From NCBI GenBank assembly GCA_001606155.1, contig LODT01000028.1, forward strand, positions 1,650,735 to 1,714,734: DNA of 64,000 bases. Reading direction: 5' to 3'. Below the pieces are notes generated by a model that was not told where the DNA came from, ran no database searches, and saw only the letters and a list, made by a program, of their open reading frames with translations. This stretch comes from Tieghemostelium lacteum (lineage: Eukaryota; Evosea; Eumycetozoa; Dictyosteliales; Raperosteliaceae). The position numbers were made by a program, and so were the translations under genes. Positions 2,042 to 24,892 of the stretch are shown here, piece by piece. Each line of letters starts with the position of its first letter. Positions within the stretch are counted from its first letter, which is position 1.

Positions 2042-3823
2042 ATGAAAGATCCCAATGAAATAGAGGTAATATTATTATTTTTATATTTGACAATATTCCC
2101 ATACATTGTAGTGACATGTTTTTAAATACTATTTTCCAATGCTTGAATTCCTATTTCTTAGTATGCTCATTTTCATTCTAATTTATTACATTTACAAAAC
2201 TAAACAGAGAGAGAAAGCAGCTTTAATTATACAATGTTGTTATAGAGGATGGGTAGTACGAAGAGCACATAAAGATTTTTGTAGGTTACATCATTATACA
2301 TTATTAGTTTTGAATATTGGTCACAATTACTTATTCCATTTCCTATGTTATGACAGTCCGAAAGATACATTACAGAAAATTTATAATCAAAGAAATTATA
2401 TCATTTGAGAAACAATATATGGAGAAAATCAATTCTATACTTGTAAATGTTAAACAGCCATTGATTACAGATATAGATAGATACAAAAAGTTCCTTACAG
2501 TTGAAAAAGTAAATCTGATATTTTCTAATCTTGATGAGATTTTGGGTCTACATCAAGATATATTCGAAGTGTTAACAACATCAAATACAGCAATTTCCAT
2601 TGGTAGAATTTATTTAGAAATGGTATGTGGTGGGTTATTTAGTAGGTCATGGCTGATTAAAGTACTAATTTAGTGTACCTATGTATAAATAGTTACCAAA
2701 ATTTAAAATTTATTTAGACTATGTTAAGAATTATAATTTGGCATTTAAGATTTATGCCAAATTGGAAAATTATATAGATTTTAGTTCATTTATGGAGGGA
2801 TTATATCTACCAAGTTATTTGATCTCACCTATACAGCATACACCTAGATATGTACTTTTATTTGCAGATTTAACTAAAAATACCAATCCACAGAATGAGG
2901 ATTATACACGTCTTCAGCAGTTGGTGGATGTAGCTAGAAAGACGGCATCTGAGATTAATCAATCCATTACAGCATCACCTCCTGATCAGTCAGAGGAAGA
3001 GGAATCAGAGGAAGAGATTGAGGAGGTGGAAGTCCCACAAGCTCAAGTTGGTAAAGGTAAACATTCAACTGTTAAACATCTCAGCCCTAATACCAGTCAA
3101 AACAGTGGTAACAGTCCATTTAAAAGACCAGCTTCAGCATCTAGTAAACGTAAACCTAGAAACTCAATTATTATGCACAAGAATGCTATTGATAAGGTTT
3201 TGTCAGATTCTGAAAATCATCTGTCGACACCATACACTTCACAGGATTTCTCTCATTTGCCATCTTACTTAAGACCTACACAAGCATCTTTAGCATGGTC
3301 CAAGAACAAAGTAGAGTTACCCTCTATTCCAAAAATGAGAATTTCAACTAACAGTCAAGACAAAATCGATAATCCTTATGTCTACAGTCACTTACCACCT
3401 TCAAAAGCACCTCCATCCGAGTTATTCATTGATCGTTCAACACCAAAAAACAAACCAGAATGGAAATCAGCAACTAAAACGCCAACTACAGACTACACCA
3501 AAATTACAAAAAAAATAATTAGACCCACTTCACCACTTCCAAAACCAAATTTTTATTCACCAACCCTCACATCCACCAAAACCAACAGTTCTCCAACTCT
3601 TTTGGATTTCTCTTCATCTTTACCAACCAGTTCAAAACCACCAATATTTAATAACAACAATAATAATAACAATAGTAATAGTAACAATAACAATAGTAAT
3701 TTTAAATTAAGTTCTTCAAAAAAATCTTTATCTTCCAATTCACTATTAAGTAGTTCATCATCTGATGGAAACAATAGTGAACCAAAATCAACTTCAGTTT
3801 CAGTAACAGTTTCTTCTACTTAA
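2042..3823 (+). CDS. RhoGEF (DH domain) with N-terminal IQ motif, no PH domain seen
   Basis: Likely guanine-nucleotide exchange factor for a Rac/Rho GTPase. Best model is join(2042..2065, 2208..2280, 2357..2641, 2718..3823), 495 residues with all phases consistent. Exon 1 is a micro-exon (MKDPNEIE). Exon 2 carries a calmodulin-binding IQ motif, 'ALIIQCCYRGWVVRR'. The DH domain follows: 'IIKEIISFEKQYMEKI', 'SIGRIYLEM', 'YVKNYNLA', then the hallmark 'SPIQHTPRYVLLFADL'. Donors at 2281 and 2642 are GTAGGT; an alternative GTTACA donor at 2285 with acceptor at 2375 would also keep frame, so the residues between IQ and DH are uncertain. After the DH domain the protein turns into an acidic stretch and Ser/Pro/Asn-rich disordered sequence with an Asn run. 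A PH domain, usual in Dbl-family GEFs, is not visible. The 73-285-nt exons would be missed by a simple open-frame search. Confidence 0.8.
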
Positions 3824-3945: not shown

Positions 3946-6034
3946 TTATGCTTGTGGTATGTTATCTGGTGATTTTAATTGTTGGTTCCAGAGATTTGCA
4001 TATTCGCCTTGAATTGATAAAAGTTGATTGTGAGTTCCTCTTTCTGCAATGATTCCATTTTTCAAAACTAGAATTTCATCACAGTGAATGATCGTTGATA
4101 ATCTATGTGCAATAATGAGTGTGGTTCTTCCTTTGGAGACTTCATTGAGTGATTGTTGAATTTTCTTTTCAGTTAGACTGTCTAGAGCGCTAGTGGCTTC
4201 ATCAAGAATCAAAATTGGTGGATTCTTTAATAAAGTTCTGGCAATTGCAACTCTTTGTTTTTCACCACCTGATAAACGTAATCCTCTTTCACCAACAAGT
4301 GTTAAGAAACCATCTGGACTTGATTCAATGAATGGAAGAATCTGAGCTCTTCTTGCAGCATCAATCAACTCTTCATCAGTTGCTTCACGTTTTCCAAATC
4401 CAATGTTATAAGCAATGGTATCATTGAAAAGAACTGTATCTTGAGGTACAACACCAATTGCTTGTCTGAGACTTAGTTGTGTTATATTTTTAATATTCTG
4501 ATTTTCTACTAAAACCTCACCATCATCTACATCGTAGAATCTGCAGAGTAATCTGAAAACTGTTGATTTTCCAGCACCTGTTGGTCCAACCAATGCAACA
4601 CTCTTTCCAGGTTCAACTCTAAATGATACACCATCAAGAATCTTTACAGTTGCAGTTTTAGTCTTATATGAAAAGGATACGTTATTAAATTCAATAGATG
4701 GTAGAATGTGGTGACCTGGGTTCTTTCTATCTACCAAATCTAATTCTGCAGCACCTGGTTGATCATATACATCTGATTTAGTTCTAAGAAGATCCATTAA
4801 GTTTTCCATATCAGTAAATGACTGTAAAATCATTCTATAACTTGACCCTAACCATGACAATGGTGAAAATATCTGTGCAATAAATGTATTGATAGCTACT
4901 ATATCACCAATTGTGAATACACCTTTAGTAGCTCTCCAAGTAGCGAATGCCAATCCAATAGTACTACCTAATACAATAATAATGCTCTGACCAAAATTCA
5001 AAGTAAAGAATGTAATCTTTGATTTCATATTCACTCTAAAATACTCTAAAATTGCATTATCATATCTCTTTCTTTCATATGACTCTGCAGTGAAATATTT
5101 GACAGTTTCAAAATTTGAAAAACTGTCTACCTTAATATCTGAAGCTTCATTTTCTTTTTTGTTTGCTAATCTTCTATATTGTGTTCTCCACTAATAGTGT
5201 GTTTGTTCATTAATTAGAATAAATTGAAAAAAATAAATATAAGGTTTTATAAAACAAACTTACCTCTGTAACAGATAAAGTAAAAGTAATATAAATAATA
5301 CAACTGAAAAGATTAATAAATGCAAATGTATATCCATAGGAGAACAATAGGAAGAAAGATACAAGGAGGATTTCAACCAAAGTTGGAAAGATATTAAATA
5401 GTAATAAAGAAAGTAGATGGACAACAGCATTGCTACCTCTTTCTACAATCTTTATAAGACTACCAGTTCTCTTACTGAGATGATAACTCAGTGACATTGA
5501 ATGTAAATGATCAAAAGTCTCTAGATTGATATTTTTAGTGGCACTATCAGTGACCGATTGAAATATAATATCTCTAAAATCCCAAATGGACTTTTGTATC
5601 AGAGATAAGACACCATAGAGTACCAACCAATGCCAAGGCACAGTGTTTGGTAGTTCATTAATAATATTCTTAAAGAGTAAAGGTACCCATAAATTTATAA
5701 ATTTAGAAATGAATATAATAGACAGTGAAACAAGTACACGTAATTTTATAGACCAACTGTTTTTTGACCAATAGTATGGAATCAATGACCTTATCATTGA
5801 AGTTGCCATATCCCAACTAGGTCTCTTTAGTGAAAATTCCTCTTCTTTTGTCATACGAGAACTTATCGACAGTTGTGCTAGAGGTACTGTTCTCTGTGGT
5901 ATATTTATATCAATTTTTTTTTGTTCTTGTAATTTTAATTGTTGTTGCTGTGAAGGTGTCAAGAGTTCCATATCAATGGTCTCTGATTCTGCCTGTTTCA
6001 CAGCCCTATATGAAACACCTCCAAATTTTCCCAT
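3946..6034 (-). CDS. ABC half-transporter, ABCB6/HMT1-like (copy 1)
   Basis: Half-size ABC exporter of the B subfamily. Exons 6034..5264 and 5190..3946 with a 73-nt intron (GTAAGT...TTAG, phase 0) give 671 residues, normal for a half transporter. An N-terminal Gln-rich tail precedes the six-helix membrane domain. The conserved 'VTEWRTQYRR' spans the splice site, followed by 'SFSNFETVKYFTAES', typical of the HMT1/ABCB6/Atm1 group that moves heavy metals, porphyrins or glutathione conjugates in vacuoles or mitochondria; the substrate here is unknown. The ATPase domain is complete: Walker A GPTGAGKST near residue 460, Q-loop 'GVVPQDT', signature LSGGEKQR near 565, Walker B ILILDEATSA near 585, and H-loop 'IIAHRL'. 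The last ~710 nt are almost identical to the second copy at 19117..21093, while the membrane halves differ clearly, which suggests gene conversion. Confidence 0.88.
3981..4690. repeat. Near-identical ABC nucleotide-binding block (member 1 of a pair)
   Basis: This stretch encodes the ATPase domain of ABC copy 1 and matches 19164..19873 in the same orientation about 15.2 kb away. By eye the first ~460 nt (3981-4440) are identical, and only about four single-base differences appear up to about 4650. Identity falls away sharply towards the membrane-domain coding part at about 4690 and just before the stop codons. Confidence 0.9.
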
Positions 6035-6247
6035 ATTTCTTATGTTCTAATGTTTTATAAAATAAATAAAAATAACTATTTAATCTTTAAATTGATTTTT
6101 TTAAGTATGAAAAAAAAAATGCTTCCATGGAATCTGTGACATAAATTATGACATTTTTAAAATTCATCAATATTTAAATTAAAATTCAATTTTTTAAAAA
6201 TCTAAAATTACTTCGGCATATCAATATCTGAAAATAAGATAAAGATA

Positions 6248-6366
6248 AAGTAGTGTTTGAGGTAAAGTTTGATGGTCTATGGGAAATTGGGTGACAATTT
6301 TACTGAAAATGCAAATTATATCTTCAGGTTTTGATACTTAAAGATTGGTGTAGAGTTCATATGTGT
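6248..6366 (-). pseudogene. Eroded relic of the local F-box/leucine-rich gene family (relic 1)
   Basis: Hidden in the 626-nt gap between ABC copy 1 and F-box copy A. About 76 nt here align without gaps to copy A around 9090-9165 (shared 'caggttttgat' and 'tggtgtagaattcat'-like stretches), and similarity continues upstream with small gaps. I estimate 75-80% identity. On the minus strand it corresponds to the copy A segment reading 'YEFYTTLLASKPGYTIS', but the frame contains a stop, so it is not coding. The rest of the gap (6035..6247 and 6367..6660) is AT-rich with nothing I can name. Confidence 0.7.
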
Positions 6367-6660
6367 TTAAAATTTAAATTATCGATTAGAAATTCTAACA
6401 ATATAACCATATACTTAGACAATTGTCATAGTAACCATATATATCTTTAACTTTGGCAAAAATAATTGTATATCTCTTGTAGACAGGCACTGACAAATTT
6501 ACTGTTAATCAGTATGATTAATAAATATGGATATTGAACTTAAATCTAGATATTAAGCTATTGCATTTGATGAATTAAATTTAAAGGCGGTAATTTGGTT
6601 TATATTTATCAAATTTTACCAAAATATATATTCTTTTATATAACATTATTTATTTATTGA

Positions 6661-9600
6661 TCAATATTTAATAAAATGATTTGTATTTATGGAATAAAAT
6701 TCACCTAAATTCAGTTGTTGCACATCAGTGGTAAATGGTAATTTATAAATATGAGTACTGCATCGAATTCCTTTAAATATTTTGAGTGACTTGATGCTCT
6801 GGTTTTGGTTGGCAACTGATAAAATAGAATCAATGGATTGTTTTGGTACTTGTGATAAAATAATATTAACTTTTTTAAGATTAGGTTTCATTAATAGCTC
6901 CATCTCTTGAGGAGTATGATGAGGACCAAAAATAGTTAATGATTCTAATTTAATTTCAGGTGACATTATAAAATCTATAACCTGTCTATTCAATGGACGT
7001 GTATTGTCAACTTGGATGAAAATGGATTGTAGGTTCAAGAATAAATTTGGTTTCAGTGGTTGATTAAAAAAAAAATTTTCTAAAATCAAATGAGTGCATG
7101 AGGTTGAGGTGGGACTAACGATTCTATCGAGACTTGGAAAACAATAACTTGGGTAGTTATCTTTAAGTGTTAATGCGATTTGATATTTGAATGTTGTGGG
7201 GTGTGATATTTGGTGGATTATGATATGATCAATGATGGATTGTATTGATTCAATGCATTCGGCAATATTGGTAGCTGGATATCCAAAATAGAGTTTATCC
7301 AATGTAGAGGTGTTGTTTAAAATCAATTTTTTAAAAATTGCACCAATCTGTGATATTCTGTTGGAATTGAGTTCAATGATGAATGAAAATTTAACTGATT
7401 GAAGTTTAAAACAATGATTCATCATTTGTAAGATACAACTGAGTGACATATCATTTCTGATTTCAATATCTAAATGTGTGAGATTAGACATTTCTCTGTT
7501 AACTAAATATATCATTGGTTTATGGATTGTCAGTGATGATAGTTGATAGAATATATCTTCAACATCTTGATAATGGAATCTTTCAAGATCTTTATAGTTG
7601 AGATGATAACATCCGAATGACATGAATGACCATTTTCTTCGAGATAGTTGGTATTTATCTGGTAGTTTCTGTTTTAGTTGTATTTTATAGTGTTGAAATG
7701 TGAGACAAACACTTTTAAAGAACAATTTAGACACCAATGAAAGTGAGAGAATATCAGATGATTTGGTTGATTTATCACGAGTGATAAATTCAACAAATTT
7801 TTGAATGATGAGATTCTGAATGTATGGTGTTTGATTGTTGAGATTTTGTTCAATTTTGTTGTGATTAAAGGTTAAACCAGTCAAAGTGAAAACAATGAGA
7901 TATTCTAAAACCAGAATATCATTTTCTTTGATGTATTGTAAAATTCTTTTTTTAGAGACAATACTAAATGATTTAAATTGTTTCAAGAGGTTATCTTGAA
8001 GTGATGAATCTAGTGAGATTAAGGGTTTGAAATACATGAGTATCATGTTAATGGAGTGCATTGAAAGTTCAACTAAATTCAATTTGTTGATGATACCACT
8101 GACAAGTTGATTGTGAATTCTGATGATATCTTGTTGAGGAATATCAATGAGGTTGCTTTTGTTGTTGAATATCAGTTGATGAACTGAATCAAATACTTTG
8201 AGATCTTCCTCAAAAAGGGGGTTTATCGTTTTATGTGGAGTTGTATTGGTATCATCTGTTGTATAATCAACAGATAAAAAAGTTTCAACAAATCTTTCAT
8301 ATCCATTTGAGATATCCTGTAGATTTCTCAATAGTTTGAATGTCATCATGGGTTGTATATATGAATTGAACTTTAAATTTGGTACAGTTTGGAAATATCT
8401 ATTCATTAGTTTGGTAATTTGTGTATCCAAGTTGACGAATCTACTCAATCCATCTAGAATACCCAAAATTCTGAATTTTTGATCCTTATTGGTGGATTTA
8501 AATTCCATATCAATCATTGAATCTAAATTCTCTTGAATGAATTTTTCACCAATCTGATCCAAATCAATGAAATGTTTGAAAATCTCAATGAATTGGTCAG
8601 AGTCATTCAAGAGTTCTTTGCTTTGTTTGAAGAGATAGTTAATCTCTTTGATATCAGTTAGATATGGGTATATAACATCAAACTTAACCATTGAGCTTTT
8701 GTTATCACTTCCAAGAGTCTTAATGAATGATCGAATGGTTTTTTCAAACAGTTGTTTGGCTTCTTTTGGATTCTTTTGTTTGATGATACTATAGAATCTC
8801 AAAATTGGATCAAAGAAAGATTCATCTCTAACTAACCATTTCTTGTTACTGTTTATAGCACCAATAAATTGAGGTATCATCTTGGTATATTCTGAAACCT
8901 TTTCATATTCCATGAAAAACTCCAACAAATAACAGAAATCCTCTGGTGACCTTGACCCAACTTTTTTTATATCATCATAAAGTTTGGTGGAGTTTTGGTT
9001 GGTTTTAATGGAGTGAATAATAGATGGTTTCAGAAGTAGTTGGTTGAGATAAACAATGAAGTTACATGGTTTGTTGGTAAAATTAGTGACAATGCCTTTG
9101 AAATTGGAAATTGTGTATCCAGGTTTTGATGCTAAAAGAGTGGTGTAGAATTCATAGAGTGTGGGGTGCTGTGAATTTTGGTCTTTGTTCTTAATTTTAC
9201 AATTTTTAGAGAGATATTTAATGAGATTGTTAAAGTGTTTTGGTTGAACGATACCATAACGTTCAATGTAGAGTCCCCAAACACTCAGAAAATAAACATA
9301 GTTATTTTTCGAACTATCAATAGCATCCCAAAAGTAATTGTATAGATCTTGTAAATGATCTCTGATGAAGCTACTTTCTATCATGTATTCAGCAAATGTG
9401 AAGAGAGTAGTATTGTATCTCTGTTGTTTAGGTTTAGATTTCCAATTCGAATAGAAATTCATAGATTCTTTTTCAATGATTTCAATTCCATAGTAGTGAA
9501 TCAAATAGTGTAGGTAGTTGGGTTGTTGAGACCGTTCCCTACTATTGAAGCTTCTGGCAAAAGATTCATTCGTTTGATTTCTTGGTATTCTATAGGTAAA

Positions 9601-10447
9601 TACACCATCCCTCGAGTAGTATGGTAATCTTGAAGATGCACTATATTGGTATATAAATGGAATCAATTGAATATAGTCATCTTTGAGTTCAAGAATATCC
9701 TCTTTTGTTAGATTCTGAAATGTCAGAATACAAAGATAGAATAACAAAATTTCTGAATTGTGACTAATACCACGAATAACATGTTTTTCACCTTTTAAAA
9801 ACACCTGTATTACCTCTCTGATAGTTTGAAGAGAGAATTTCTCTTTTCTAATCAAATCATCTCTATTTATAAAATTCTTTTCTACTTCTTGTCTATTTAC
9901 ACTTGATCCATCTGGGAAATATATTTGATTGATGAATGCGCATGCCATAAAATACCAATTGTGAGTAACATCTTCATACTCTGATGCCTATATATAATCA
10001 AAATGATTAATAAGTGAATATTGATGGGGTTTTATTTTTAATTAAACTTACATCTAGAAATAAAGATAATGGTAGTGAGCATTCATTTAAATTTTGTTGT
10101 AGGCTACTACCATATGTTCGTGTTCGTAATAGAGCATTAATGATTGTTGGGTCTTTTGATTCCAATAATTTACGATAAATTGATTTCCTGTAGAGTGTTA
10201 TCATATCGTTGTAATAATATAATAGCATAGATGTTTTATAGTGTTGTTCGTTGTGGCAGTTTGGTTGATATTCATCAAACCACTTCAAGAGTTTCGACAT
10301 AAAGATATAATCATGTCTCACCATATCAACAATATTTGAAAAATTATCCCTTTCACTCTGGGTAAAGGTAACTTTAATTTTCTCTATAAATTCATTAACT
10401 TCTTCTGAGTAAATAATAATATCATCAGGAGGTGATTGTGAGTTCAT
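6661..10447 (-). CDS. F-box-like/leucine-rich paralogue A
   Basis: One gene of two exons: 10447..10052 and 9987..6661, with a 64-nt intron (GTAAGT...ATAG, phase 0), giving 1240 residues. The two open frames join as '...LSLFLD' + 'ASEYEDVTHNWYF'. The ATG at 9948 is an internal Met, not the start. Residues ~1-850 look all-helical with no family I recognise. A degenerate F-box ('ILSLSLVSKLFFKSVCLTF') lies roughly two-thirds of the way along. The C-terminal third has leucine-rich segments such as 'NLTHLDIEI' and 'KLESLTIF'. If the F-box reading is right the protein would recruit targets to an SCF ubiquitin ligase, with the leucine-rich end as the binding face; that is inference. Copies B and C are about 90% identical overall, differing mainly in a linker and in C-terminal loops. 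Confidence 0.8.
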
Positions 10448-10570
10448 TAAAAAATATTTAGTTAAAAAATATTATTTTATATATTAGTAAATGTTATTAA
10501 TATTATTATTGAAAAGGTATTTATAATTATTAATGGGATGATAATAATGGAACATTTTTCAAGAAATGAA
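10448..10570. repeat. Duplicated upstream region shared by F-box copies A and C
   Basis: The DNA just upstream of copy A resembles that upstream of copy C (18920..19040). Both have 'attaaaaaatatttag' at the start codon, then 'agtaaatgttattaatatta' and 'ttaatgggatgataat' in the same order. Copy B keeps only the first ~42 nt (14530-14570) before the sequence switches to an ABC-gene relic. The shared blocks are probably the family promoter. The remainder up to 10741 holds nothing I recognise. Confidence 0.65.
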
Positions 10571-10741
10571 TTATTTTTTTGATACTTAGAAATTTTGGTT
10601 TAAATTAACATTTTTAAAACAGGAATTCCTAAAAATAACCATTTTGTTCTTTATAAAAAAAAAGTGTGGTTGGGGGTTTTTAATTTACAAATTTTATCAT
10701 ATATATATTGGCTTCTGGAATGGTATTAAATTATTTATTGA

Positions 10742-13700
10742 TTAATATTTAATAAAATGATTTGTATTTATGGAATGAAATACACCTAAATTAAGTATAC
10801 GCACATCAGTGGTAAATGGTAATTTATAAATATAGTTGTAATTACATTGGGAGGGAATATTAATACTGTCATTAACTCCTTTAAATATTTTGAGTGACTT
10901 GATGCTCTGATTTCGGTTGGCAACTGATAAGATAGAATTAATGTATTCTGGTGTTGATAATATAAAATTAACTTTTTTAAGATTAGGTTTCATTAATAAC
11001 CTATTTTGAAGTATATGCTGAAAACCAAAAATAGTTAATGATTCCAATTTAATTTCTGGTGACATTATAAAGTCTATAACCTCTCTATACAATCGACATA
11101 CACCGTTAACTTTAATGGAAATGGATTGTAGGTTCAAGAATAGATTTGGTTTCAGTGGTTGACTAAAATCTTCTAAAATCAAATGAGTGCATGTTGAGAT
11201 GAGACTAACGATTCTATCGCGATTTGGAAGTCTACTCCTCTCATAGTTATCTGTAAATGTTAATGCGATTTGATATTTGAATGTTGTGGGGTGTGATTTT
11301 TGGTGGTTTATGATATGATCAATGATAGATTGTATTGATTCAATGCATTCAGTGATATAGGTATCTGGATATCCAAAATAGAGTTTATCCAATGTAGAGG
11401 TGTTGTTTAAAATCAATTTTTTAAAAATTGCACCAATCTGTGATATTCTGTTGAAATTGAGTTCAATGATGAATGAAAATTTAACTGATTGAAGTTTAAA
11501 ACAATGATTCATCATTTGTAAGATACAACTGAGTGACATATCATTTCTGATTTCAATATCTAAATGTGTGAGATTAGACATTTCTCTGTTAACTAAATAT
11601 ATCATTGGTTTATGGATTGTCAGTGATGATAGTTGATAGAATATATCTTCAACATCTTGATAATGGAATCTTTCAAGATCTTTATAGTTGAGATGATAAC
11701 ATCCGAATGACATGAATGACCATTTTCTTCGAGATAGTTGGTATTTATCTGGTAGTTTCTGTTTTAGTTGTATTTTATAGTGTTGAAATGTGAGACAAAC
11801 ACTTTTAAAGAACAATTTAGATACCAATGAAAGTGAGAGAATATCTGATGGTTTGGTTGATTTATCACGAGTGATAAATTCAACAAATTTTTGAATGATG
11901 AGATTCTGAATGTATGGTGTTTGATTGTTGAGATTTTGTTCAATTTTGTTGTGATTAAAGGTGAAACCAGTCAGAGTGAAATCATTGAGATATTCTAAAA
12001 CCAGAATATCATTTTCTTTGATGTATTGTAAAATTCTCTTTTTAGAGACAATACTAAATGATTTAAATTGTTTCAAGAGGTTATCTTGAAGTGATGAATC
12101 TAGTGAGATTAAGGGTTTGAAATACATGAGTATCATGTTAATGGAGTGCATTGAAAGATCAACTAAATTCAATTTGTTGATGATACCACTGACAAGTTGA
12201 TTGTGAATTCTGATGATATCTTGTTGAGGAATATCAATGTGGTTGCTTTTGTTGTTGAATATCAGTTGATGAACTGAATCAAATACTTTGAGAGGATAAA
12301 TTTCCTTATTATATGCTATTGCATTGGTATCAACTGTTATATAATCAACAGATAAAAAAGATTCCACAAATCTTTCATATCCATTTGAGATATCCAGTAG
12401 ATTTCTCAATAGTTTGAATGTCATCAAGGTTTGTATATATGAATGGACAATAAAGTTTGGTACAGTTTGGAAATATCTATTCATTAGTTTGGTTATTTGT
12501 GTATCCAAGTTGACGAATCTACTCATTCCATCTAGAATACCCAAAATTCTGAATTTTTGATTCTTATTGGTGGATTTAAATTCCATATCAATCATTGAAT
12601 CTAAAATCTCTTGAATGAATTTTTCACCAATCTGATCCAAATCAATGAAATGTTTGAAAATCTCAATGAATTGGTCAGAGTCATTCAAGAGTTCTTTGCT
12701 TTGTTTGAAGAGATAGTTAATCTCTTTGATATCAGTTAGATATGGGTATATAACATCAAACTTAACCATTGAACTTTTGTTATCACTTTCAAGAGTCTTA
12801 ATGAATAATAGAATGGTTCTTTCAAACAGTTGTTTGGCTTCTTTTGGGTTCTTTTGTTTGATGATACTATAGAATCTCAAAATTGGATCAAAGAAAGATT
12901 CATCTCTAACCAACCATTTCTTGTTACTGTTTATAGCACCAATAAATTGAGGTATCATCTTGGTATATTCTGAAACCTTTTCATATTCCATGAAAAACTC
13001 CAACAAATAACAGAAATCCTCTGGTGACCTTGACCCAACTTTTTTTATATCATCATAAAGTTTGGTGAAGTTTTTGTTGGTTTTAATGGAGTGAATAATA
13101 GATGGTTTCAGAAGTAGTTTGTTGAGATAAACAATGAAGTTACATGGTTTGTTGGTAAAATTAGTGACAATGCCTTTGAAATTGGAAATTGTATATTCAG
13201 GGTTCGATGCTAAAAGAGTGGTGTAGAATTCATAGAGTGTGGGGTGCTGTGAATTTTGATCTTTGTTCATAATTTTACAATTATTTGAGAGATATTTAAT
13301 GAGATTGTTAAAGTGTTTTGGTTGAACGATACCATAACGTTCAATGTAGAGTCCCCAAACACTCAAAAAATAAACATAGTTATTTATCGTACTATCAATA
13401 GCATCCCAAAAGTAATTGTATAGATCTTGTAAATGATCTCTGATGAAGATACTTTCTATCATGTATTCAGCAAATGTGAAGAGAGTATTATTATTTCTCT
13501 GTTCTATAGGTTTAGATTTCCAATTCGAATAGAAATTCAGAGATTCTTTTTCAATGATTTCAATTCCATAGTAGTGAATCAAATAGTGTAGGTAGTTGGG
13601 TTGTTGAGACCGTTCCCTATTGTTGAAGCTTCTGGCAAAAGATTCATTCGTTTCATTTCTTGGCATGACATAGGTAAATACACCATCCCTCGAGTAGTAT

Positions 13701-14529
13701 GGTAATCTTGAAGATGCACTATATTGGTATATAAATGGAATCAATTGAATATAGTCATCTTTGAGTTCAAGAATATCCTCTTTTGTTAGATTCTGAAATG
13801 TCAGAATACAAAGATAGAATAACAAATTTTCTGAAAAACTTGAAATATTTTGTAAAACATGTTTTTCACCTTTTAAAAACACCTGTATTACCTCTTTGAT
13901 GGTTTGAAGAGAGAATTTCTTTTTTCTAATCAATTCATCTCTATTTATAAAATTCTTTTCTACTTCTTGTCTATTTATACTTGATCCATCTGGGAAATAT
14001 ATTTGATAGACGAATGTGAATGCCATTATATACCAATTGTGTGTAACTTTTGCATACTCTGATGCCTATATAATTAATATGATTAATAAGTGAATATTGA
14101 TGAGGTTTTATGTTTAATTGAACTTACATCTAGAAATAAAGATAATGATAGTGAGCACTCATTTAAATTTTCTTGATAAAGGCTAATATTTAAGGTTGGT
14201 TTAAGAAATAGAGACCTAATGATTGTTGAGTCTTTTGATTCCAATAATTTACGATAAATTGATTTCCTGTAGAGTGTTATCATATCGTTGTAATAATCTA
14301 ATAGCATAACTGTTTTATAGTGTTGTTCGTTGTGGCAATTTGGCTGATATTCATCAAACCACTTTAAGAGTTTCGACATAAACATATAGTCATGTCTCAC
14401 TATATCAACTATAGTTGAAAAACTATCCCTTTCACTCTGTGTCAAGGTATCTTTAATTTTCTCTATAAATTCATTAACTTTTTCTGAGTAAATAATAATA
14501 TCAGGAGGGGGTGGTGATTGTGAGTTCAT
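10742..14529 (-). CDS. F-box-like/leucine-rich paralogue B
   Basis: Two exons, 14529..14128 and 14065..10742, with a 62-nt intron (GTAAGT...ATAG, phase 0) at exactly the position used in copies A and C; 1241 residues. Architecture as in copy A: helical N-terminal part, degenerate F-box-like 'LSLVSKLFFKSV', leucine-rich C-terminus ending 'SINTNHFIKY'. Differences from A and C gather in two places: a linker near 'VDYITVDTNAIAY', where B lacks the Glu-Glu-Asp segment, and the C-terminal third, where loops differ in length by whole codons while framework segments such as 'LKPNLFLNLQSI' stay fixed. All three copies are open over their whole length, which suggests selection to keep them. Function in the cell is unknown. 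Confidence 0.8.
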
Positions 14530-14570
14530 TAAAAAATATTTAGTTTAAAAATAAATATTATTTTATGCTT

Positions 14571-14663
14571 TTGGAAATTGAAACTCTTTGTTTTTCACCA
14601 CCTTATAAACGTAATCCTCTTTCACCAACAAATGTTGAGAAACCATCTAGACTTGATTCAATT
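14571..14663 (-). pseudogene. Relic of an ABC-transporter ATPase domain
   Basis: About 93 nt between F-box copies B and C match ABC copy 1 at about 4238..4330 and the equivalent part of ABC copy 2, with about seven mismatches (roughly 92% identity by eye). The matched part encodes the LSGGEKQR signature and the residues just before it. The serine of the signature is replaced by a stop and the rest of the gene is missing, so this is a leftover of a third ABC copy. It starts only ~42 nt upstream of the copy B start codon, marking a rearrangement breakpoint. Confidence 0.85.
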
Positions 14664-14734
14664 ATTTCAGTATTATATAATATTATATTACTGTAATCTT
14701 TTTTTTCAAAATAGATTTAATTCAGTTTTGAAGA

Positions 14735-14815
14735 ATAGTTTTAAGGTAACTAGTTGGAAGTTAGACCAATTTTACTGAATTTGGATATATTCAGGTTTTA
14801 ATTGTAGTTTTATAT
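14735..14815 (-). pseudogene. Weaker F-box family relic (relic 2)
   Basis: This stretch shares 'caattttactgaa' and 'ttcaggtttt', in the same order and spacing within a few bases, with relic 1 (6291-6335). Upstream 'tagttttaaggtaa' parallels 'tagtgtttgaggtaa' of relic 1. It resembles relic 1 more than the live copies, so both relics may come from one older copy. Homology is visible over only ~80 nt and is tentative. The remaining DNA up to 15098 is AT-rich without other recognisable content. Confidence 0.45.
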
Positions 14816-15098
14816 TGCAAAATAAAGGGATATTAATATATATATGCTATTATTCTGTAACTATTACTTCAATACTTTATAGGGTTTATTTAATATTTTT
14901 ATTTTTTAAAACATTTTAATTTCTGAGTGTGTTGAATTTGTTACAACGGGTGTTAGTTGACACCATACTATCATATAATATGTAGAATAACTATTATTAC
15001 TTCACATCATAGTTACACCCATCCTAAATACTTGTTTATAAATATAAAAGCATAATTTTAAAAAAACATGTTCAAAAATATATAAAAATATTTATTGA

Positions 15099-18000
15099 TC
15101 AATATTTAATAAAATGATTTGTATTTATGGAATGAAATTCACCTAAATTCAGTTGTTTCACATCAGTGGTATATGGTAATTTATAAATTTGGCCGGGAAT
15201 ATTAGAACTGTATCTATCCCCGTTAAATAATTTGAGTGACTTGATGCTCTGGTTTTGGTTGACAAGTGATATGATAGAATTAATGTATTGTTCTGGTAGT
15301 TCTGATGGTAATATAAAATTAACTTTTTTAAGATTAGGTTTTTTTAATAGCTCCATTTCTTTAAATGTATGATGTGTTTTAGGACCTAAAATAGTTAATG
15401 ATTCCAATTTAATTTCTGGTGACATTATAAAATCTAGAACCTCTCTATAAAATTGATATATTTTGTCAACTTGGATGAAAATGGATTGTAGGTTCAAGAA
15501 TAGATTTGGTTTCAGTTGACCTTCGATTTTATTAAAATTTTCTAAAATCAAATGAGTGCATGTTGAGATGAGACTAACTATTCTATCGAGATTTGGAATA
15601 CTATCCCTATCATAGGTATCTTTAAATGTTAATGCGATTTGATATTTGAATGTTGTGGGGTGTGATATTTGGTAGTCTATGATATGATCAATGATAGATT
15701 GTATTGATTCAATGCATTCAGTAATATTGGTAGCTGGATATCCAAAATAGAGTTTATCCAATGTAGAGGTGTTGTTTAAAATCAATTTTTTAAAAATTGC
15801 ATCAATCTGTAATATTCTTTTGGAATTGAGTTGATTGATGAATGAAAATTTAACCGATTGAAGTTTAAAACAATGATTCATCATTTGTAAGATACAACTG
15901 AGTGACATATCATTTCTGATTTCAATATCTAAATGTGTGAGATTAGACATTTCTCTGTTAACTAAATATATCATTGGTTTATGGATTGTCAGTGATGATA
16001 GTTGATAGAATATATCTTCAACATCTTGATAATGGAATCTTTCAAGATCTTTATAGTTGAGATGATAACATCCTAATGACATGAATGACCATTTTCTTCG
16101 AGATAGTTGGTATTTATCTGGTAGTTTCTGTTTTAGTTGTATTTTATATTGTTGAAATGTGAGACAAACACTTTTAAAGAACAATTTAGACACCAATGAA
16201 AGTGAGAGAATATCTGATGGTTTGGTTGATTTATCACGAGTGATAAATTCAACAAATTTTTGAATGATGAGATTCTGAATGTATGGTGTTTGATTGTTGA
16301 GATTTTGTTCAATTTTGTTGTGATTAAAGGTTAAACCAGTCAAAGTGAAATCATTGAGATATTCTAAAACCAGAATATCATTTTCTTTGATGTATTGTAA
16401 AATTCTTTTTTTAGAGACAACATCAAATGATTTGAATTGTTTCAAGAGGTTATCTTGAAGTGATGAATCTAGTGAGATTAAGGGTTTGAAATACATGAGT
16501 ATCATGTTAATGGAGTGCATTGAAAGATCAACTAAATTCAATTTGTTGATGATACCACTGACAAGTTGATTGTGAATTCTGATGATATCTTGTTGAGGAA
16601 TATCAATGTGGTTGCTTTTGTTGTTGAATATCAGTTGATGAACTGAATCAAATACTTTGAGATCTTCCTCAAAAAAGAGGTTTATCGTTTTATATGGATT
16701 TTTATTGGTATCAACTGTTGTATAATCAACAGATAAAAAAGATTCCACAAATCTTTCATATCCATTTGAGATATCCAGTAGATTTCTCAATAGTTTGAAT
16801 GTCATCTGACATATCATGGATTGTGTATATAAATGGAAATTTAAGTTTGGTACAGTTTGGAAATATCTATTCATTAGTTTGGTTATTTGTGTATCCAAGT
16901 TGACGAATCTACTCATTCCATCTAGAATACCCAAAATTCTGAATTTTTGATTCTTATTGGTGGATTTAAATTCCATATCAATCATTGAATCTAAAATCTC
17001 TTGAATGAATTTTTCACCAATCTGATCCAAATCAATGAAATGTTTGAAAATCTCAATGAATTGGTCAGAGTCATTCAAGAGTTCTTTGCTTTGTTTGAAG
17101 AGATAGTTAATCTCTTTGATATCTGATAGATATGGGTATATAACATCAAACTTAACCATTGAGCTTTTGTTATCACTTTCAAGAGTCTTAATGAATGATC
17201 GAATGGTTTTTTCAAACAGTTGTTTGGCTTCTTTTGGATTCTTTTGCTTGATGATACTATAGAATCTCAAAATTGGATCAAAGAAAGATTCATCTCTAAC
17301 CAACCATTTCTTGTTACTGTTTATAGCACCAATAAATTGAGGTATCATCTTGGTATATTCTGAAACCTTTTCATATTCCATGAAAAACTCCAACAAATAA
17401 CAGAAATCCTCTGGTGACCTTGACCCAACTCTTTTTATAACATTGTAAAGTTTAGTGAAGTTTTTATTGGTTTTAATGGAGTGAATAATAGATGGTTTCA
17501 GCAGTAGTTGGTTGAGATAAATAATGAAGTTACATGGTTTGTTGGTAAAATTAGTGACAATGCCTTTGAAATTGGAAATTGTGTATCCAGGTTTTGATGC
17601 TAAAAGAGTGGTGTAGAATTCATAGAGTGTGGGGTGCTGTGAATTTTGGTCTTTGTTCTTAATTTTACAATTTTTAGAGAGATATTTAATGAGATTGTTA
17701 AAGTGTTTTGGTTGAACAAAACCATAACGTTCAATGTAGAGTCCCCAAACACTCAGAAAATAAACATAGTTATTTTTCGAACTATCAATAGCATCCCAGA
17801 AGTAATCGTATAGATCTTGTAAATGATCTCTGATGAAGATACTTTCTATCATGTATTCAGCAAATGTGAAGAGAGTAGTATTGTATCTCTGTTGTTTAGG
17901 TTTAGATTTCCAATTCGAATAGAAATTCAGAGATTCTTTTTCAATGATTTCAATTCCATAGTAGTGAATCAAATAGTGTAGGTAGTTGGGTTGTTGAGAC

Positions 18001-18919
18001 CGTTCCCTATTGTTGAAGCTTCTGGCAAAAGATTCATGGGTTTGATTTCTTGGTATTCTATAGGTAAATACACCATCCCTCGAGTAGTATGGTAATCTTG
18101 AAGATGCACTGTGTTGGTATATAAATGGAATCAATTGAATATAGTCATCTTTGAGTTCAAGAATATCCTCTTTTGTTAGATTCTGAAATGTCAGAATACA
18201 GAGATAGAATAACAAATTTTCTGAATTGTGACTAATACCACGAATAACATGTTTTTCACCTTTTAAAAACACCTGTATTACCTCTTTGATGGTTTGAAGA
18301 GAGAATTTCTCTTTTCTAATCAATTCATCTCTATTTATAAAATTCTTTTCTACTTCTTGTCTATTTACACTTGATCCATCTGGGAAATATATTTGATTGA
18401 TGAATGCGCATGCCATAAAATACCAATTGTGAGTAACATCTTCATATTCTGATATCTATATAATCAATATGATTAATAAGTGAATATTGATGAGGTTTTA
18501 TGTTTAATTGAACTTACATCTAGAAATAAAGATAATGGTAGTGAGCATTCATTTAAATTTTGTTGTAGGTTATAATGTAAAGTTGTTGGTTTATGTAATA
18601 GAGTGTTAATGATTGTTGGGTCTTTTGATTCCAATAATTTACGATAAATTGATTTCCTGTAGAGTGTTGTCATATCGTTGTAATAATCTAATAGCATAAC
18701 TGTTTTATAGTGTTGTTCGTTGTGGCAATTTGGTTGATATTCATCAAACCACTTCAAGAATTTCGACATAAACATATAGTCATGTCTCACCATATCAACA
18801 ATAGTTGAAAAAATATCCCTTTCACTCTGTGTCAAGGGATCTTTAATTCTCTCTATAAATTCATTAACTTCTTCTGAGTAAATAATAATATCATCAGGAG
18901 GGGGTAATTGTGAGTTCAT
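15099..18919 (-). CDS. F-box-like/leucine-rich paralogue C
   Basis: Two exons, 18919..18518 and 18455..15099, with a 62-nt intron (GTAAGT...ATAG, phase 0); 1252 residues, the longest of the three. Exon 2 opens with Ile ('ISEYEDVTHNWYF') where A and B have Ala. The domain order matches A and B. C carries its own small insertions in the leucine-rich part, for example 'NFNKIEGQLKPN' and 'PSELPEQYINSI', each a whole number of codons. Its upstream region is shared with copy A. It is followed on the upstream side by ABC copy 2, about 200 nt away, in the same orientation. Function unknown beyond the family inference given for copy A. Confidence 0.8.
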
Positions 18920-19116
18920 TAAAAAATATTTAGCAAAAATAAATATTATTTTATATATTTTATTATAATATATATTTAGTAAATGTTATTAATATTATTT
19001 TTTTATGTATTGGATAGCTATTAATGGGATGATAATTTTGTTTTATTTTATTTTATGTAAAAAAAAATTTGGTTAATATGTGTTAATTAAAATTCTTAGA
19101 ATTTGTAAAGAAATAT

Positions 19117-21093
19117 TTATTCATCATCTTCTTCTTTGTTTATGTTATCTGGTGAATTAAGTTGTTGGTTCCAGAGATTTGCATATTCGCCTTGAATTGA
19201 TAAAAGTTGATTGTGAGTTCCTCTTTCTGCAATGATTCCATTTTTCAAAACTAGAATTTCATCACAGTGAATGATCGTTGATAATCTATGTGCAATAATG
19301 AGTGTGGTTCTTCCTTTGGAGACTTCATTGAGTGATTGTTGAATTTTCTTTTCAGTTAGACTGTCTAGAGCGCTAGTGGCTTCATCAAGAATCAAAATTG
19401 GTGGATTCTTTAATAAAGTTCTGGCAATTGCAACTCTTTGTTTTTCACCACCTGATAAACGTAATCCTCTTTCACCAACAAGTGTTAAGAAACCATCTGG
19501 ACTTGATTCAATGAATGGAAGAATCTGAGCTCTTCTTGCAGCATCAATCAACTCTTCATCAGTTGCTTCACGTTTTCCAAATCCAATGTTATAAGCAATG
19601 GTATCATTGAAAAGAACTGTATCTTGAGGTACGACACCAATTGCTTGTCTGAGACTTAGTTGTGTTATATTTTTAATATTCTGATTTTCGACTAAAACCT
19701 CACCATCATCTACATCGTAGAATCTGCAGAGTAATCTGAACACTGTTGATTTTCCAGCACCTGTTGGTCCGACCAATGCAACACTCTTTCCAGGTTCAAC
19801 TCTAAATGATACACCATCAAGAATCTTTACAGTTGCTGTCTCAGTCTTATATGAAAAGGATACGTTATTAAAATGAATGGAAGGTAGGATTGTATCTCCA
19901 TTGGAATCTGATAAATCTAAATCTTGAGCATCAGGTATATCTGAAATCTCAGGTTTCAAGTTCAACAAATCTACTAGATTCTCCATATCTGTAAACTGTT
20001 TCATTATCATTCTATAGCTTGACCCTATCCATTGTAAAGGTTCAAAAACCTGCATTATCAAAGTATTGATTGCAACTAGGTCACCTATAGAGAACTGATT
20101 ATTTCCTGTAGCTTTCCAAGTTGCAAAAGTCAGTGCAACTACAGTTCCAACAGCTGCAATAGAAGCCTGTCCCATACTAGCTAGTATATAAGTCCATTTA
20201 GCCTTCATGTTAGTACTGTAGTAGTCCAGTAATGCAATATCATATCTATGTCTTTCAAAAGACTCTGCAGTGAAATATTTCAAAGTTTCAAAATTTGTGA
20301 AACTATCCGATCGAATATCAGTAGATTGACCTTCTTTGTAATTTGCTATTCTTCTAAATTGATTTCTCCACTCTGTTATCATAAATGTAAAAACACTATA
20401 CACCAAAACTGAAAACACATTTATACATGCAAATGTGTATCCATAAGAACACCAAAGAAACACAGTAACCATTATAATCTCTATAAAAGTTGGAAGTGTA
20501 TCAAACAGTATGACATGCATAAGATCGACCACTGCATAACTCCCTTTTTCAGTAGTCTTTAATAAACTACCAGATTTCTTACTGAGATGGTAACTTAACC
20601 CTAGTGAATGTACCTTATCAAATGTCTCCAAATTCACATTTCTCAAAGCATTGTCTGTAACAGGTTGATACACAATATCTCTAAAGTCCCATATATTCTT
20701 TTGAACCAGTACTAATACACCATAACACAGTAACCACTGCCAAGGCATTGAATTTGGTAATTGGTCTATGATGTTCTTATAAATCACAGGTACTAATAAA
20801 TTTAACAATTTCCATAGAAATACTGAGGAAATAGATAAAATAACTCTGATTTTAATAGAATTACTGTTCTTTGACCACAAGTACGGAAAAAGTGTCCTCC
20901 ACAGAGACGTTATCATTTCCCAACTAGGTCTCTTTAAATGTAACTCCTCTTTTTTTGTTAATGTTTTTGCACTACTGCTAAAAAGTGCTAATGGTGTAGT
21001 GCTACCATATACATTTCCTTTAATACTATTTATTTGTGATTCTTTTATTTGTTTTTTTGAATCGGGTAAAATAACCCTTTGTTTTACTTCCAT
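19117..21093 (-). CDS. ABC half-transporter, ABCB6/HMT1-like (copy 2, intronless)
   Basis: A single open frame of 658 residues starting at ATG 21093. It has a six-helix membrane domain with the group signature 'FMITEWRNQFRR' and 'SFTNFETLKYFTAES', then a complete ATPase domain (Walker A GPTGAGKST, Q-loop 'VVPQDT', signature LSGGEKQR, Walker B ILILDEATSA, H-loop 'IIAHRL') and a short acidic tail ending EEDDE. It lacks the intron that splits 'VTE|WRTQ' in copy 1, at the homologous site. The membrane half differs from copy 1 at roughly half of its residues by eye, yet the ATPase half is essentially identical in protein and DNA. Probably an organellar or vacuolar exporter; the substrate cannot be read from sequence. 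Confidence 0.88.
   Translation of the reverse strand: MEVKQRVILPDSKKQIKESQINSIKGNVYGSTTPLALFSSSAKTLTKKEELHLKRPSWEMITSLWRTLFPYLWSKNSNSIKIRVILSISSVFLWKLLNLLVPVIYKNIIDQLPNSMPWQWLLCYGVLVLVQKNIWDFRDIVYQPVTDNALRNVNLETFDKVHSLGLSYHLSKKSGSLLKTTEKGSYAVVDLMHVILFDTLPTFIEIIMVTVFLWCSYGYTFACINVFSVLVYSVFTFMITEWRNQFRRIANYKEGQSTDIRSDSFTNFETLKYFTAESFERHRYDIALLDYYSTNMKAKWTYILASMGQASIAAVGTVVALTFATWKATGNNQFSIGDLVAINTLIMQVFEPLQWIGSSYRMIMKQFTDMENLVDLLNLKPEISDIPDAQDLDLSDSNGDTILPSIHFNNVSFSYKTETATVKILDGVSFRVEPGKSVALVGPTGAGKSTVFRLLCRFYDVDDGEVLVENQNIKNITQLSLRQAIGVVPQDTVLFNDTIAYNIGFGKREATDEELIDAARRAQILPFIESSPDGFLTLVGERGLRLSGGEKQRVAIARTLLKNPPILILDEATSALDSLTEKKIQQSLNEVSKGRTTLIIAHRLSTIIHCDEILVLKNGIIAERGTHNQLLSIQGEYANLWNQQLNSPDNINKEEDDE
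19164..19873. repeat. Near-identical ABC nucleotide-binding block (member 2 of a pair)
   Basis: Partner of 3981..4690. The differences I can see are isolated single bases, for example at the codons around 19633, 19689, 19741 and 19771; everything between about 19164 and 19630 looks identical to copy 1. Confidence 0.9.
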
Positions 21094-22288: not shown

Positions 22289-22598
22289 TATCAGTTTTTA
22301 GAAACAAGTAAATGTAAATAAATTTTGATCAAAAAAATTCATAAATAACTTAAAAATAAAGGTGTCATAATAAATGCTTTAATTTTATCTCAACTTTATT
22401 AGATGATTGGCAACTCATTCTATGTATGGATTAAAGATTACAGTAAGATTTTATCGTTCATTTTTATTAGGTGATTGAAATCGTTTTTTACTACTTAGTT
22501 TATTTTGTCTATTTCATATGAAACTATATTTTGAATTAAATAAATCTAGATTTGTAAAAATTCAGGGCAAATCTGCTTTACATTTAATTTTTTCAAAC
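22289..22598. other. Intergenic gap
   Basis: About 310 nt of AT-rich DNA between two plus-strand genes. An in-frame ATG at 22518 could extend the next gene by 27 residues, but it lacks the A-rich leader seen before the ATG at 22599. Confidence 0.4.
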
Positions 22599-24892
22599 AT
22601 GAATAAAGATAATACACAACCAACAAATTTTAATGATATTGATATACCAAAAGAACATTGGAACAATGAATCAGTTCAAAAATGGTGTAAGGTAATAGGA
22701 ATACCTGAATCTGATATTAAACATATTCGTGATAATAATATTAAAGGGAGATGGTTAGTTCTAAAAAAAGACAATTTAGAGAAAGAGTTAAAAGAAATTC
22801 AAGTTTCTGCTAATTCAGCTTTTGAAATATATTTAAAGTTCAACCCAACCACTAGTGGTATGTAAAATAAACAGCTACCACTAATCTAAACACCTTTTGT
22901 TCATTTATACTAATATATTTTGTAACATAAACATCAACACAATTTAAACAATGTTGACATTCAACTACACAAGGACATCAAGTTGAGGAAGGTATGTAGA
23001 TTTTTTTGAATAGTATAAAGCAGATAGTATTAATAAATTGAAATAATTAGATTACAGTGATATATTAAAACATTTAGTAGATAAATGTGATCAAAACTTC
23101 TTTAAATCACATAATGTAAATATTTTGTTTGTACCAGGAAATTCAACACAATAATAACCTATCTTTATAGATAATAGCCACCTATGGAAAAGATTTTCCT
23201 CTTGAGGGAAGAAAAGAAACAATGGATATATTATGTCAAGAAACTGAAAAAAGATTTAAAAATAGATCAGAAACAGATCAGAAAATTCATCCTATATTAG
23301 TAGCTACCGGATCCCCAGGTATTGGAAAAACCAGAGTTTTAGTTGAATATCCTAAAATTTTAGAATCAAAAAAGATTGGATACCCGAACTATAAAGAGCT
23401 ATATGTATCGTATGGCAATGGTACACCATTCCAAGAATCGGATGAATTAAGAATAGGAATAGTTACATCATTTTGTTTGAGGATCATTGCCTATCACAAT
23501 AAATTAACTGCACCATGGGATTACCTATTACGTGTATATAAAAAGAAATATCCCTCACGACAACTGAATTTGCTTGAGGTATTAGAACACATACAGGTCG
23601 AAGTAGGAAAACCAACAACTTTTCTATTGTCAGTTGACGAATTCCAAAAGATGCTGGTTACTAGAAACACCCCTCAGGAATCTAGAGCTTATCTAAAAGA
23701 AATTGTTACTAGAATTGGGGGTCTCCTCTGCAATAATCATTCTAATATATTTTTAGTAGCTGTCTTTGGTGGAATTTTATTAACACCACTCTCTCAAGTT
23801 ATTTTCACTTCGGGTCACCATTGCAAAGCACTTCCTATACCAATCTTGTCTTTAGATCAAATGTTGAATATTGCTAAAGGTATTGATACTATTCGTCCAC
23901 ATGTAGAAGAGCAGAGATTTAAATACTGCCTTTATTTAATAGGTGGTTGGCCAAGAATATTAGAGCAGTTTTTATTAGCAGTTGATAACCTTTTGGTAAA
24001 TAGTAATGGGACTGAAGAATACTATACTGATGCAATTGGAACAGCAGAACAATACCTGGACAATATCTATCGTGCTCAAATAACTCATGAAGACCAAATA
24101 AAAATTCAAACTCTCTTGGCTTATAGTTTCACTGGTATACCTGTAACAAGTTGGTCCGCTGAATACCCAAAAGGTTTGGGACAAACATTTGAAGAATTGG
24201 AGTTTTTGGGATTAATTACCAAATATAAAGTATCCAATGCAACCTTAGTTGCCATTCCACCTATTGCAGTAAATTTGTGCAAAGATGACCACTTTAACTC
24301 TATCCGAGCTATAAAGAATATTCTGAAGTATCAATCTCACTGGCAGGGTTGGGAAAAATTCTGTGCACAATTACTCGTAGTAAAACTATCAATGTTTCAC
24401 TACCTTGATGTAAATAGTATTACAATGACTGAATTATTAGGTCAAGATGCTATTAATTCACCATCATCAAATAATAAACTCATTGACATTTCGGATCCAG
24501 GGCCAAAATATGAAATATTAGAACACCAATATCCTACATATAGAAAAGAGAATATTGATAGAAAAAAAGTCTATTTAAATGCTACTGGGGCTGCATTTGA
24601 TTTGTTTATATTCAATGGAAATGTTATGATTGCTGGTCAAGCAAAATCGAAAGTTAAAGGAAAATTAACAGAAAATTTAGGTATGATAGAATATGATAAG
24701 ACTACAAAGGCTATCAAAAATGGGATAAATTTAGGTGTAATTTCTGATTTGCTCCTTGAAAATGTTTTCTTAGTAATTTTTGCCAACATGGATTCAGGAA
24801 TAGTCAAAGAAGATCTCTACGAATCTGTGGTGGTTGTTGACCATACTACCCACCAATTCTTTGGCCCCAATATGAGACTACTATTGCATTAA
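22599..24892 (+). CDS. SAM domain + P-loop NTPase + REase-like nuclease (Crinkler/RHS-type architecture)
   Basis: Best model join(22599..22857, 22974..22991, 23051..23115, 23171..24892), 687 residues, phases consistent, with an 18-nt micro-exon. Residues ~10-85 form a SAM domain ('HWNNESVQKWC', 'IKGRWLVLKKDNLEKEL'). The NTPase starts at 'ATYGKDFPLEGRKET', with Walker A GSPGIGKTR and Walker B-like 'TFLLSVDEFQKM'. The C-terminal part, from 'WEKFCAQLL', has 'GAAFDLFIF...AGQAKSK', fitting the D...QxK core of a restriction-endonuclease fold. An NTPase followed by such a nuclease is the arrangement described for Crinkler and trypanosomatid RHS proteins; here the header is a SAM domain. The gene looks whole. 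Role unknown: effector, genome-defence or inter-element conflict protein are all open. The exact splicing of exons 2-3 is inferred. Confidence 0.65.

Follow-up and report, generated by a model that had tools for sequence, protein, structure and literature searches.

The 64-kb stretch of DNA analyzed here (the window, C23:1650735-1714734) comes from the dictyostelid Tieghemostelium (Dictyostelium) lacteum. The genome used comprises 23.33 Mb in 43 contigs, named below as C4, C9, C15, C23, C36, C38, and C40 where needed, and all comparisons between loci were made within this one genome. The published assembly is given as 23.4 Mb in 54 contigs, built from 29-fold 454 reads and fosmids (PMC4931340). 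The window carries a cluster of two intact ABC half-transporter genes (ABC1 and ABC2), three intact genes of about 1,250 codons (A, B, and C), one ABC relic, and one relic of the A/B/C family (Table 1). For the genes of this family, which the original prediction had called F-box genes, we use the neutral name F. The list of open reading frames (ORFs) agrees with that prediction in placing all members on the minus strand and in the order that it gave.

Table 1. Features of the ABC/F cluster (positions within the window; NBD, nucleotide-binding domain; aa, amino acids).
Feature	Positions	Strand	Description
ABC1	3946-6034	-	ABCB-type half-transporter (predicted), intact, 671 aa; ORFs, Pfam, splicing
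Conversion tract in ABC1 (NBD)	3958-4689	-	722/732 bp identical to 19141-19872
F relic 1	6251-6511 (core 6265-6361)	-	Remnant of F gene interior; blastn, profile
F gene A	6661-10447	-	Two exons, intron 9988-10051, 1240 aa, intact
F gene B	10742-14529	-	Two exons, intron 14066-14127, 1241 aa, intact
ABC relic	14569-14662	-	94 bp of NBD; matches 19419-19512 (ABC2) and 4236-4329 (ABC1)
Claimed F relic 2	14735-14815	-	Not confirmed; weakly like relic 1
F gene C	15099-18919	-	Two exons, intron 18456-18517, 1252 aa, intact
5' flank of C in common with A	18920-19036 (C), 10448-10545 (A)	-	Self-blastn, shuffle test
ABC2 part and 3' flank recurring before the C36 F gene	19083-19703	-	Pieces 19703-19508, 19357-19289, 19167-19083
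ABC2	19117-21093	-	ABCB-type half-transporter (predicted), no intron, 658 aa; ORFs, Pfam, structure matches
Conversion tract in ABC2	19141-19872	-	Partner of 3958-4689; block identity, dS

ABC1 appears broken into two ORFs because it contains a 73-bp GT-AG intron (5191-5263); when spliced, it is open over all 671 amino acids. At this position ABC2 and a separate relative on C40 (L043) have no intron, and either a gain in ABC1 or a loss in the other two would account for the difference. In Pfam, ABC2 matched ABC_tran with 111.9 bits (cut-off 25) and ABC_membrane with 92.1 bits (cut-off 28). The first ORF of ABC1 matched ABC_membrane with 37.6 bits and the second ABC_tran with 113.5 bits; the remainder of ABC_membrane, located in the second ORF, scored 12.8, under the cut-off. 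With one ABC_membrane and one ABC_tran domain each, both are predicted to be ABCB half-transporters. Among the best 60 of 148 solved-structure matches of ABC2, plant ABCB25 (7n58) and ABCB6 (8yr3, 8fwk) ranked highest, and full-length ABCB4 and bacterial Atm1-type exporters (4mrn) followed close behind. ABC1 and ABC2 thus resemble half-transporters of the ABCB6 and ABCB7-Atm1 type in having one transmembrane and one nucleotide-binding domain. The C40 relative is 43% identical to ABC2, and its N-terminus was read as Atm1-like. When the ABC2 DNA was compared with the genome, nine matches were found at six places, namely ABC2 itself, ABC1 (two pieces), the relic in the window, C36 (three pieces), the C40 relative, and a remote ABC gene on C4. 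Two of the four copies of the ABC1/ABC2 kind are relics.

Self-blastn aligned ABC1 with ABC2 in two parts of 85% and 69% identity, and the difference between them is abrupt. Over the 732-bp tract the genes are 98.6% identical, with no difference at all over the 471 bp of 3979-4449, while the transmembrane half is mostly 42-76% identical per 50-bp block. The edges are sharp, with identity rising at 4689/19872 and falling again past 3958/19141. In the transmembrane half, 235 of 417 amino acids are identical, with a synonymous divergence (dS) of 1.35 and a nonsynonymous divergence (dN) of 0.35; the inner 225 codons of the tract encode 225 of 225 identical amino acids and carry four silent changes (dS 0.026), the other six of the ten differences being located at the edges. 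Plain constraint on the nucleotide-binding domain is ruled out as the cause, because the silent sites are near-identical as well (dS 0.026 versus 1.35 outside). A near-identical, sharp-edged segment in otherwise diverged paralogues, silent sites included, is the mark of interlocus gene conversion. ABC1 and ABC2 are therefore old paralogues, and one of them received this stretch from the other long after the two genes had separated. Either gene may have been the donor.

A merging of reads from two similar copies during assembly could in principle imitate such a tract. The genome was assembled from 454 reads, which are about 471 bp long or less, so the difference-free 471 bp would span one read length or more. 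However, ten differences persist in the tract and both of its edges are sharp. A merge also presupposes that the copies were nearly identical already, so some conversion would be required anyway, and we regard an artefact as highly improbable.

The ABC sequence on C36 shows that ABC and F sequences have also been copied together. Three collinear matches to the ABC2 DNA (E-values of 2e-61, 4e-20, and 9e-11) make up a broken ABC copy at C36:52539-52892, and F homology (C36:52951-56180) starts 58 bp further on, on the same strand; order and strand are those of ABC2 and C. Of the three C36 pieces, two fall inside the ABC1/ABC2 tract, as does the window ABC relic. The last C36 piece lies mostly outside the tract and matches the tail, the stop codon, and the 3' flank of ABC2, with a score of 97 that was reached by none of 1000 shuffles (maximum 52), versus a score of 28 against ABC1, reached by 46 of 1000. 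As the ABC2 tail and 3' flank are repeated here, an F gene was copied as a block along with the ABC2-type 3' end in front of it, and the C36 junction is a copy of an ABC2-type junction. An internal stretch of about 188 codons is missing from the C36 F gene, but its frame is open for 917 amino acids. There are thus three places (ABC2 and C, the ABC relic and B, and C36) where an F gene has an ABC gene or remnant ahead of it in the same orientation, and before B and on C36 the ABC sequence has been reduced to remnants. The proposal that ABC and F genes were duplicated as a linked unit, with later loss of ABC parts, holds at the C36 junction, while the specific block that it envisaged around A and C does not, as described below.

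Two of the three relics proposed in the window could be recognized. F relic 1, expected from a diagonal through 6248-6366, is indeed a remnant of an F gene: its core is 75.5% identical to the interior of A, B, and C alike by blastn, and the F profile matched it with an E-value of 3e-14. It is 76-80% identical to copies on C36 and C38 and 71% identical to the C4 copies. Its equal distance from A, B, and C indicates that it predates their split. The ABC sequence reduced to some 93 nt (diagonal through 14571-14663) was recovered as a 94-bp relic that is 92.6% identical to both ABC1 and ABC2 (E-value of 9e-33, self-blastn). It lies upstream of B, 39 bp from the ATG; the homology of B stops at 14566 and the relic starts at 14569, just as predicted for the point where the upstream DNA of B breaks off. 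F relic 2, on the other hand, could not be substantiated, as it gave no self-blastn diagonal to the F genes and was missed by the F profile at E ≤ 10. Its score against gene C was reached by 11 of 300 shuffles and against gene A by 67 of 300. As cut-outs, relic 1 and the claimed relic 2 gave a score that none of 300 shuffles reached. When the whole relic spacers were compared under three scorings, 16, 34, and 133 of 3000 shuffles reached the score, as did 3, 0, and 3 of 198 comparisons with unrelated window pieces.

The original prediction had described two triplets of ABC, relic, and F gene (3.9-10.4 kb and 14.6-18.9 kb) with matching order and spacing and had derived them from a single duplicated block. 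The positions do correspond, but the sequences of the spacers do not align. The downstream (3') spacers of A and C gave a score of 43, versus a shuffle mean of 29.5. In simulations with an indel rate that we set at one fifth of the substitution rate, none of the 200 pairs simulated per divergence scored down to 43 at 0.06, 0.12, 0.18, or 0.25 substitutions per site; this fraction rose to 9% at 0.30, 51% at 0.35, and 88% at 0.40. If homologous, the spacers therefore differ by about 0.3 substitutions per site or more. We estimate that a block as old as the A-C pair (dS 0.063) should have left spacers that are about 85-95% alike, and spacers as alike as the genes they separate, which a recent tandem duplication of the triplet would leave, were not found. 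Two readings are thus left: the triplets do not derive from a single block, or they do and this block exceeds the last A-C exchange several-fold in age. That exchange covered only the gene and about 100 bp of 5' flank. Duplication of the triplet as one block, with the second ABC then cut to 94 bp, is in our opinion unlikely: the common order, the stop-to-relic distances (about 300 bp for A and 284 bp for C), the weak similarity of relics 1 and 2, and the sister relationship of A and C fit it, but the spacers are unalignable at an age when easy alignment would be expected and relic 2 is not recognized as F. A variant with an old block, in which A and C were homogenized later, survives.

The F genes themselves are closely related and have introns of 62-64 bp. 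By self-blastn, A and C are 93.7% identical, B and C 92.6%, and A and B 92.1%, with whole-gene dS values of 0.063 (A-C), 0.082 (B-C), and 0.087 (A-B). In the DNA tree, A and C are sisters (support 1.000) inside an A-B-C clade (0.999). The expectation that A and C have upstream DNA in common was correct over about 100 bp (to 10545/19036), with a score of 95 versus a shuffle maximum of 58 (n = 500). The 66 shared derived sites conflict, 32 of them grouping A with C, 17 A with B, and 17 B with C, and by our estimate the conflicting sites exceed the few parallel changes expected at such divergence. Within clusters, dS was 0.06-0.09 (six pairs on C23, C38, and C4), and between clusters it was 0.13-1.16 (four pairs). 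The dN/dS ratios, calculated by the Nei-Gojobori method from small counts, were 0.70 (A-B), 0.73 (A-C), and 0.76 (B-C) over the whole gene and 0.82, 0.88, and 1.64, respectively, in the C-terminal part (from alignment column 881); for A-C the ratio was also 1.13 in columns 561-880. The F genes thus appear to be under relaxed or diversifying evolution. With 11 close copies and at least 36 further matched stretches in the genome, some of which are pieces of one gene, they form a large, fast-evolving family without a Pfam match. One aligned row (C38_c2) combines two overlapping loci and carries one base twice, and there are rows that overrun the gene or begin short of its start; C38_c2 and these imperfect rows entered the F profile, the DNA tree, and the conflict count, and were kept out of the codon analyses.

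Three further observations concern the F copies on C38. In alignment columns 3000-3200, one C38 copy has 98% identity to A, B, and C, compared with 88-93% in the adjoining blocks, which could reflect either constraint or exchange between contigs. A degenerate F copy, interrupted internally by a large gap (L032:359-1338; C38:106758-107737), lies just upstream of an intact one, and a separate exon-1 remnant is found at L033:4917-5120 (C38:156916-157119).

Pfam does not bear out the F-box label. The F-box profiles (PF00646/PF12937) matched none of 10 whole F members at E ≤ 10, none of five isolated 57-aa segments (from five of the 10 members), and nothing in a remote F paralogue on C9. Among the best candidates, the 81 places found by a genome search with PF12937 included none at a listed F-family place, and profiles of the F protein and of the 57-aa segment found no F-box chain in the PDB. 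Structures were predicted with AlphaFold2 for the three window copies, and the mean predicted local distance difference test (pLDDT) values of 41 (whole second exon) and 52 (last 406 aa) denote low confidence. These models show helices followed by strand-helix repeats, with strands and helices alternating at residues 828-1066. Foldseek gave nine matches at E ≤ 0.001, six of them titled NLR proteins and the other three being chains of the mouse cytoplasmic lattice, with template modeling (TM) scores by query of 0.28-0.42; unrelated folds appeared from E 0.005 on, and the F-box/LRR (leucine-rich repeat) proteins MAX2 and D3 stood among them at E 0.003-0.011. F-box identity was accordingly not established by Pfam, the PDB profiles, the genome search, or the two structure predictions. 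One of the 10 members had a weak LRR match in Pfam (E 0.028), and a match to Rota_NS6, under the cut-off (E 0.0011-0.024), was dismissed as chance. Like F-box/LRR substrate receptors, the F proteins have an F-box-like string seen by eye (LIIQKFV-FI...SDILSLSLVSKLFFKSVC), ahead of the strand-helix repeat region, and weak fold matches to LRR regions (NLR); unlike them, the 10 members have no Pfam F-box match and the models are of low confidence. "F-box/LRR-like" may serve as a working name and no more.

We consider the cluster to be, more likely than not, an old tandem array of ABC and F genes under birth-and-death and gene conversion, in which an ABC half-transporter stood directly before an F gene. 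Misaligned recombination, in the form of unequal crossing-over and gene conversion among the repeated copies of ABC and F, would drive both the copying of blocks and the overwriting of the nucleotide-binding domain. The F genes would be kept and diversify, with the ABC copies, two of four being relics, as passengers. The likeness of A, B, and C may stem from recent duplication or exchange confined to the genes and their short flanks, not from duplication of the ABC-relic-F triplet. An unequal crossover between the upstream and the downstream ABC gene would yield a chimeric middle ABC before an extra F gene, and the model, though not any result, would place it where the 94-bp relic sits.

Several points weigh against this array interpretation. 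ABC sequence lies directly upstream of only three of the 11 close F copies (C, B, and C36), and A and seven copies on C38, C4, and C15 have none at E ≤ 1. The 94-bp relic is inside the conversion tract and has no tail, so neither its lineage nor a copy of the ABC2-C junction at B can be proven. Support for the position of the C36 F gene in the DNA tree is weak (0.599). Conversion inside the F genes could not be demonstrated, because the conflicting sites are not significantly clustered: as few runs occurred in 2548 of 20000 permutations and an equally long run in 12787 of 20000. Finally, the evidence is drawn from a single dictyostelid genome. The F genes might instead have moved singly with short flanks and landed beside ABC genes by chance, the fragment before B being captured at insertion. 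The homology of F copies does end about 10-60 bp after the stop codon and 10-100 bp upstream of the ATG, and eight of the 11 close copies lack an upstream ABC. Yet C36 repeats the ABC2-F junction together with the ABC2 tail and 3' flank, and A, B, and C keep their introns and are therefore not retrogenes; such single-gene movement seems quite improbable to us. It would be more speculative still, and we give it very little credence, that ABC and F are a functional pair (e.g., a transporter alongside a diversifying recognition protein whose C-terminus is LRR-like) and that selection favors their linkage, which is restored time and again, the ABC nucleotide-binding domain serving as a recombination substrate that homogenizes the transporters and seeds new ABC-F units. 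A literature search at the bibliographic level found no description of ABC/F-box coupling in dictyostelids.

Outside the cluster, the window ORFs gave no tblastn match at 1e-4 to the loci L031-L043. At 22518-24892 (plus strand), a SAM-like ORF is followed by a 556-aa AAA/P-loop ORF whose end looks nuclease-like by eye, with all Pfam matches under the cut-off; the pair is reminiscent of Crinkler-type proteins and may be related to them. A 973-aa protein at 28622-31543 (minus strand) has three IPT/TIG stretches and an EGF-like match in Pfam, and we take it to resemble the dictyostelid Tgr adhesion proteins.

Birth-and-death and concerted evolution are general processes in tandem gene families, and the cluster is alike in its tandem copies, relics, conversion, and greater similarity within than between clusters. 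It differs from the usual families of this kind in that two unrelated families were copied together, one expanding while the copies of the other decay. The process is thus of a known, ordinary kind, and this cluster is a new example of it. It offers a compact, datable case of one gene family dragging an unrelated neighbor through duplication, and its gene-conversion tract is very clean and lies in paralogues that have otherwise diverged deeply; of all the findings, this tract and the copy on C36 are the ones most worth keeping. It also illustrates that, in a tandem cluster, matching order and spacing do not suffice to prove block duplication, as it is the spacers that decide. The F family is open to investigation by dictyostelid specialists.

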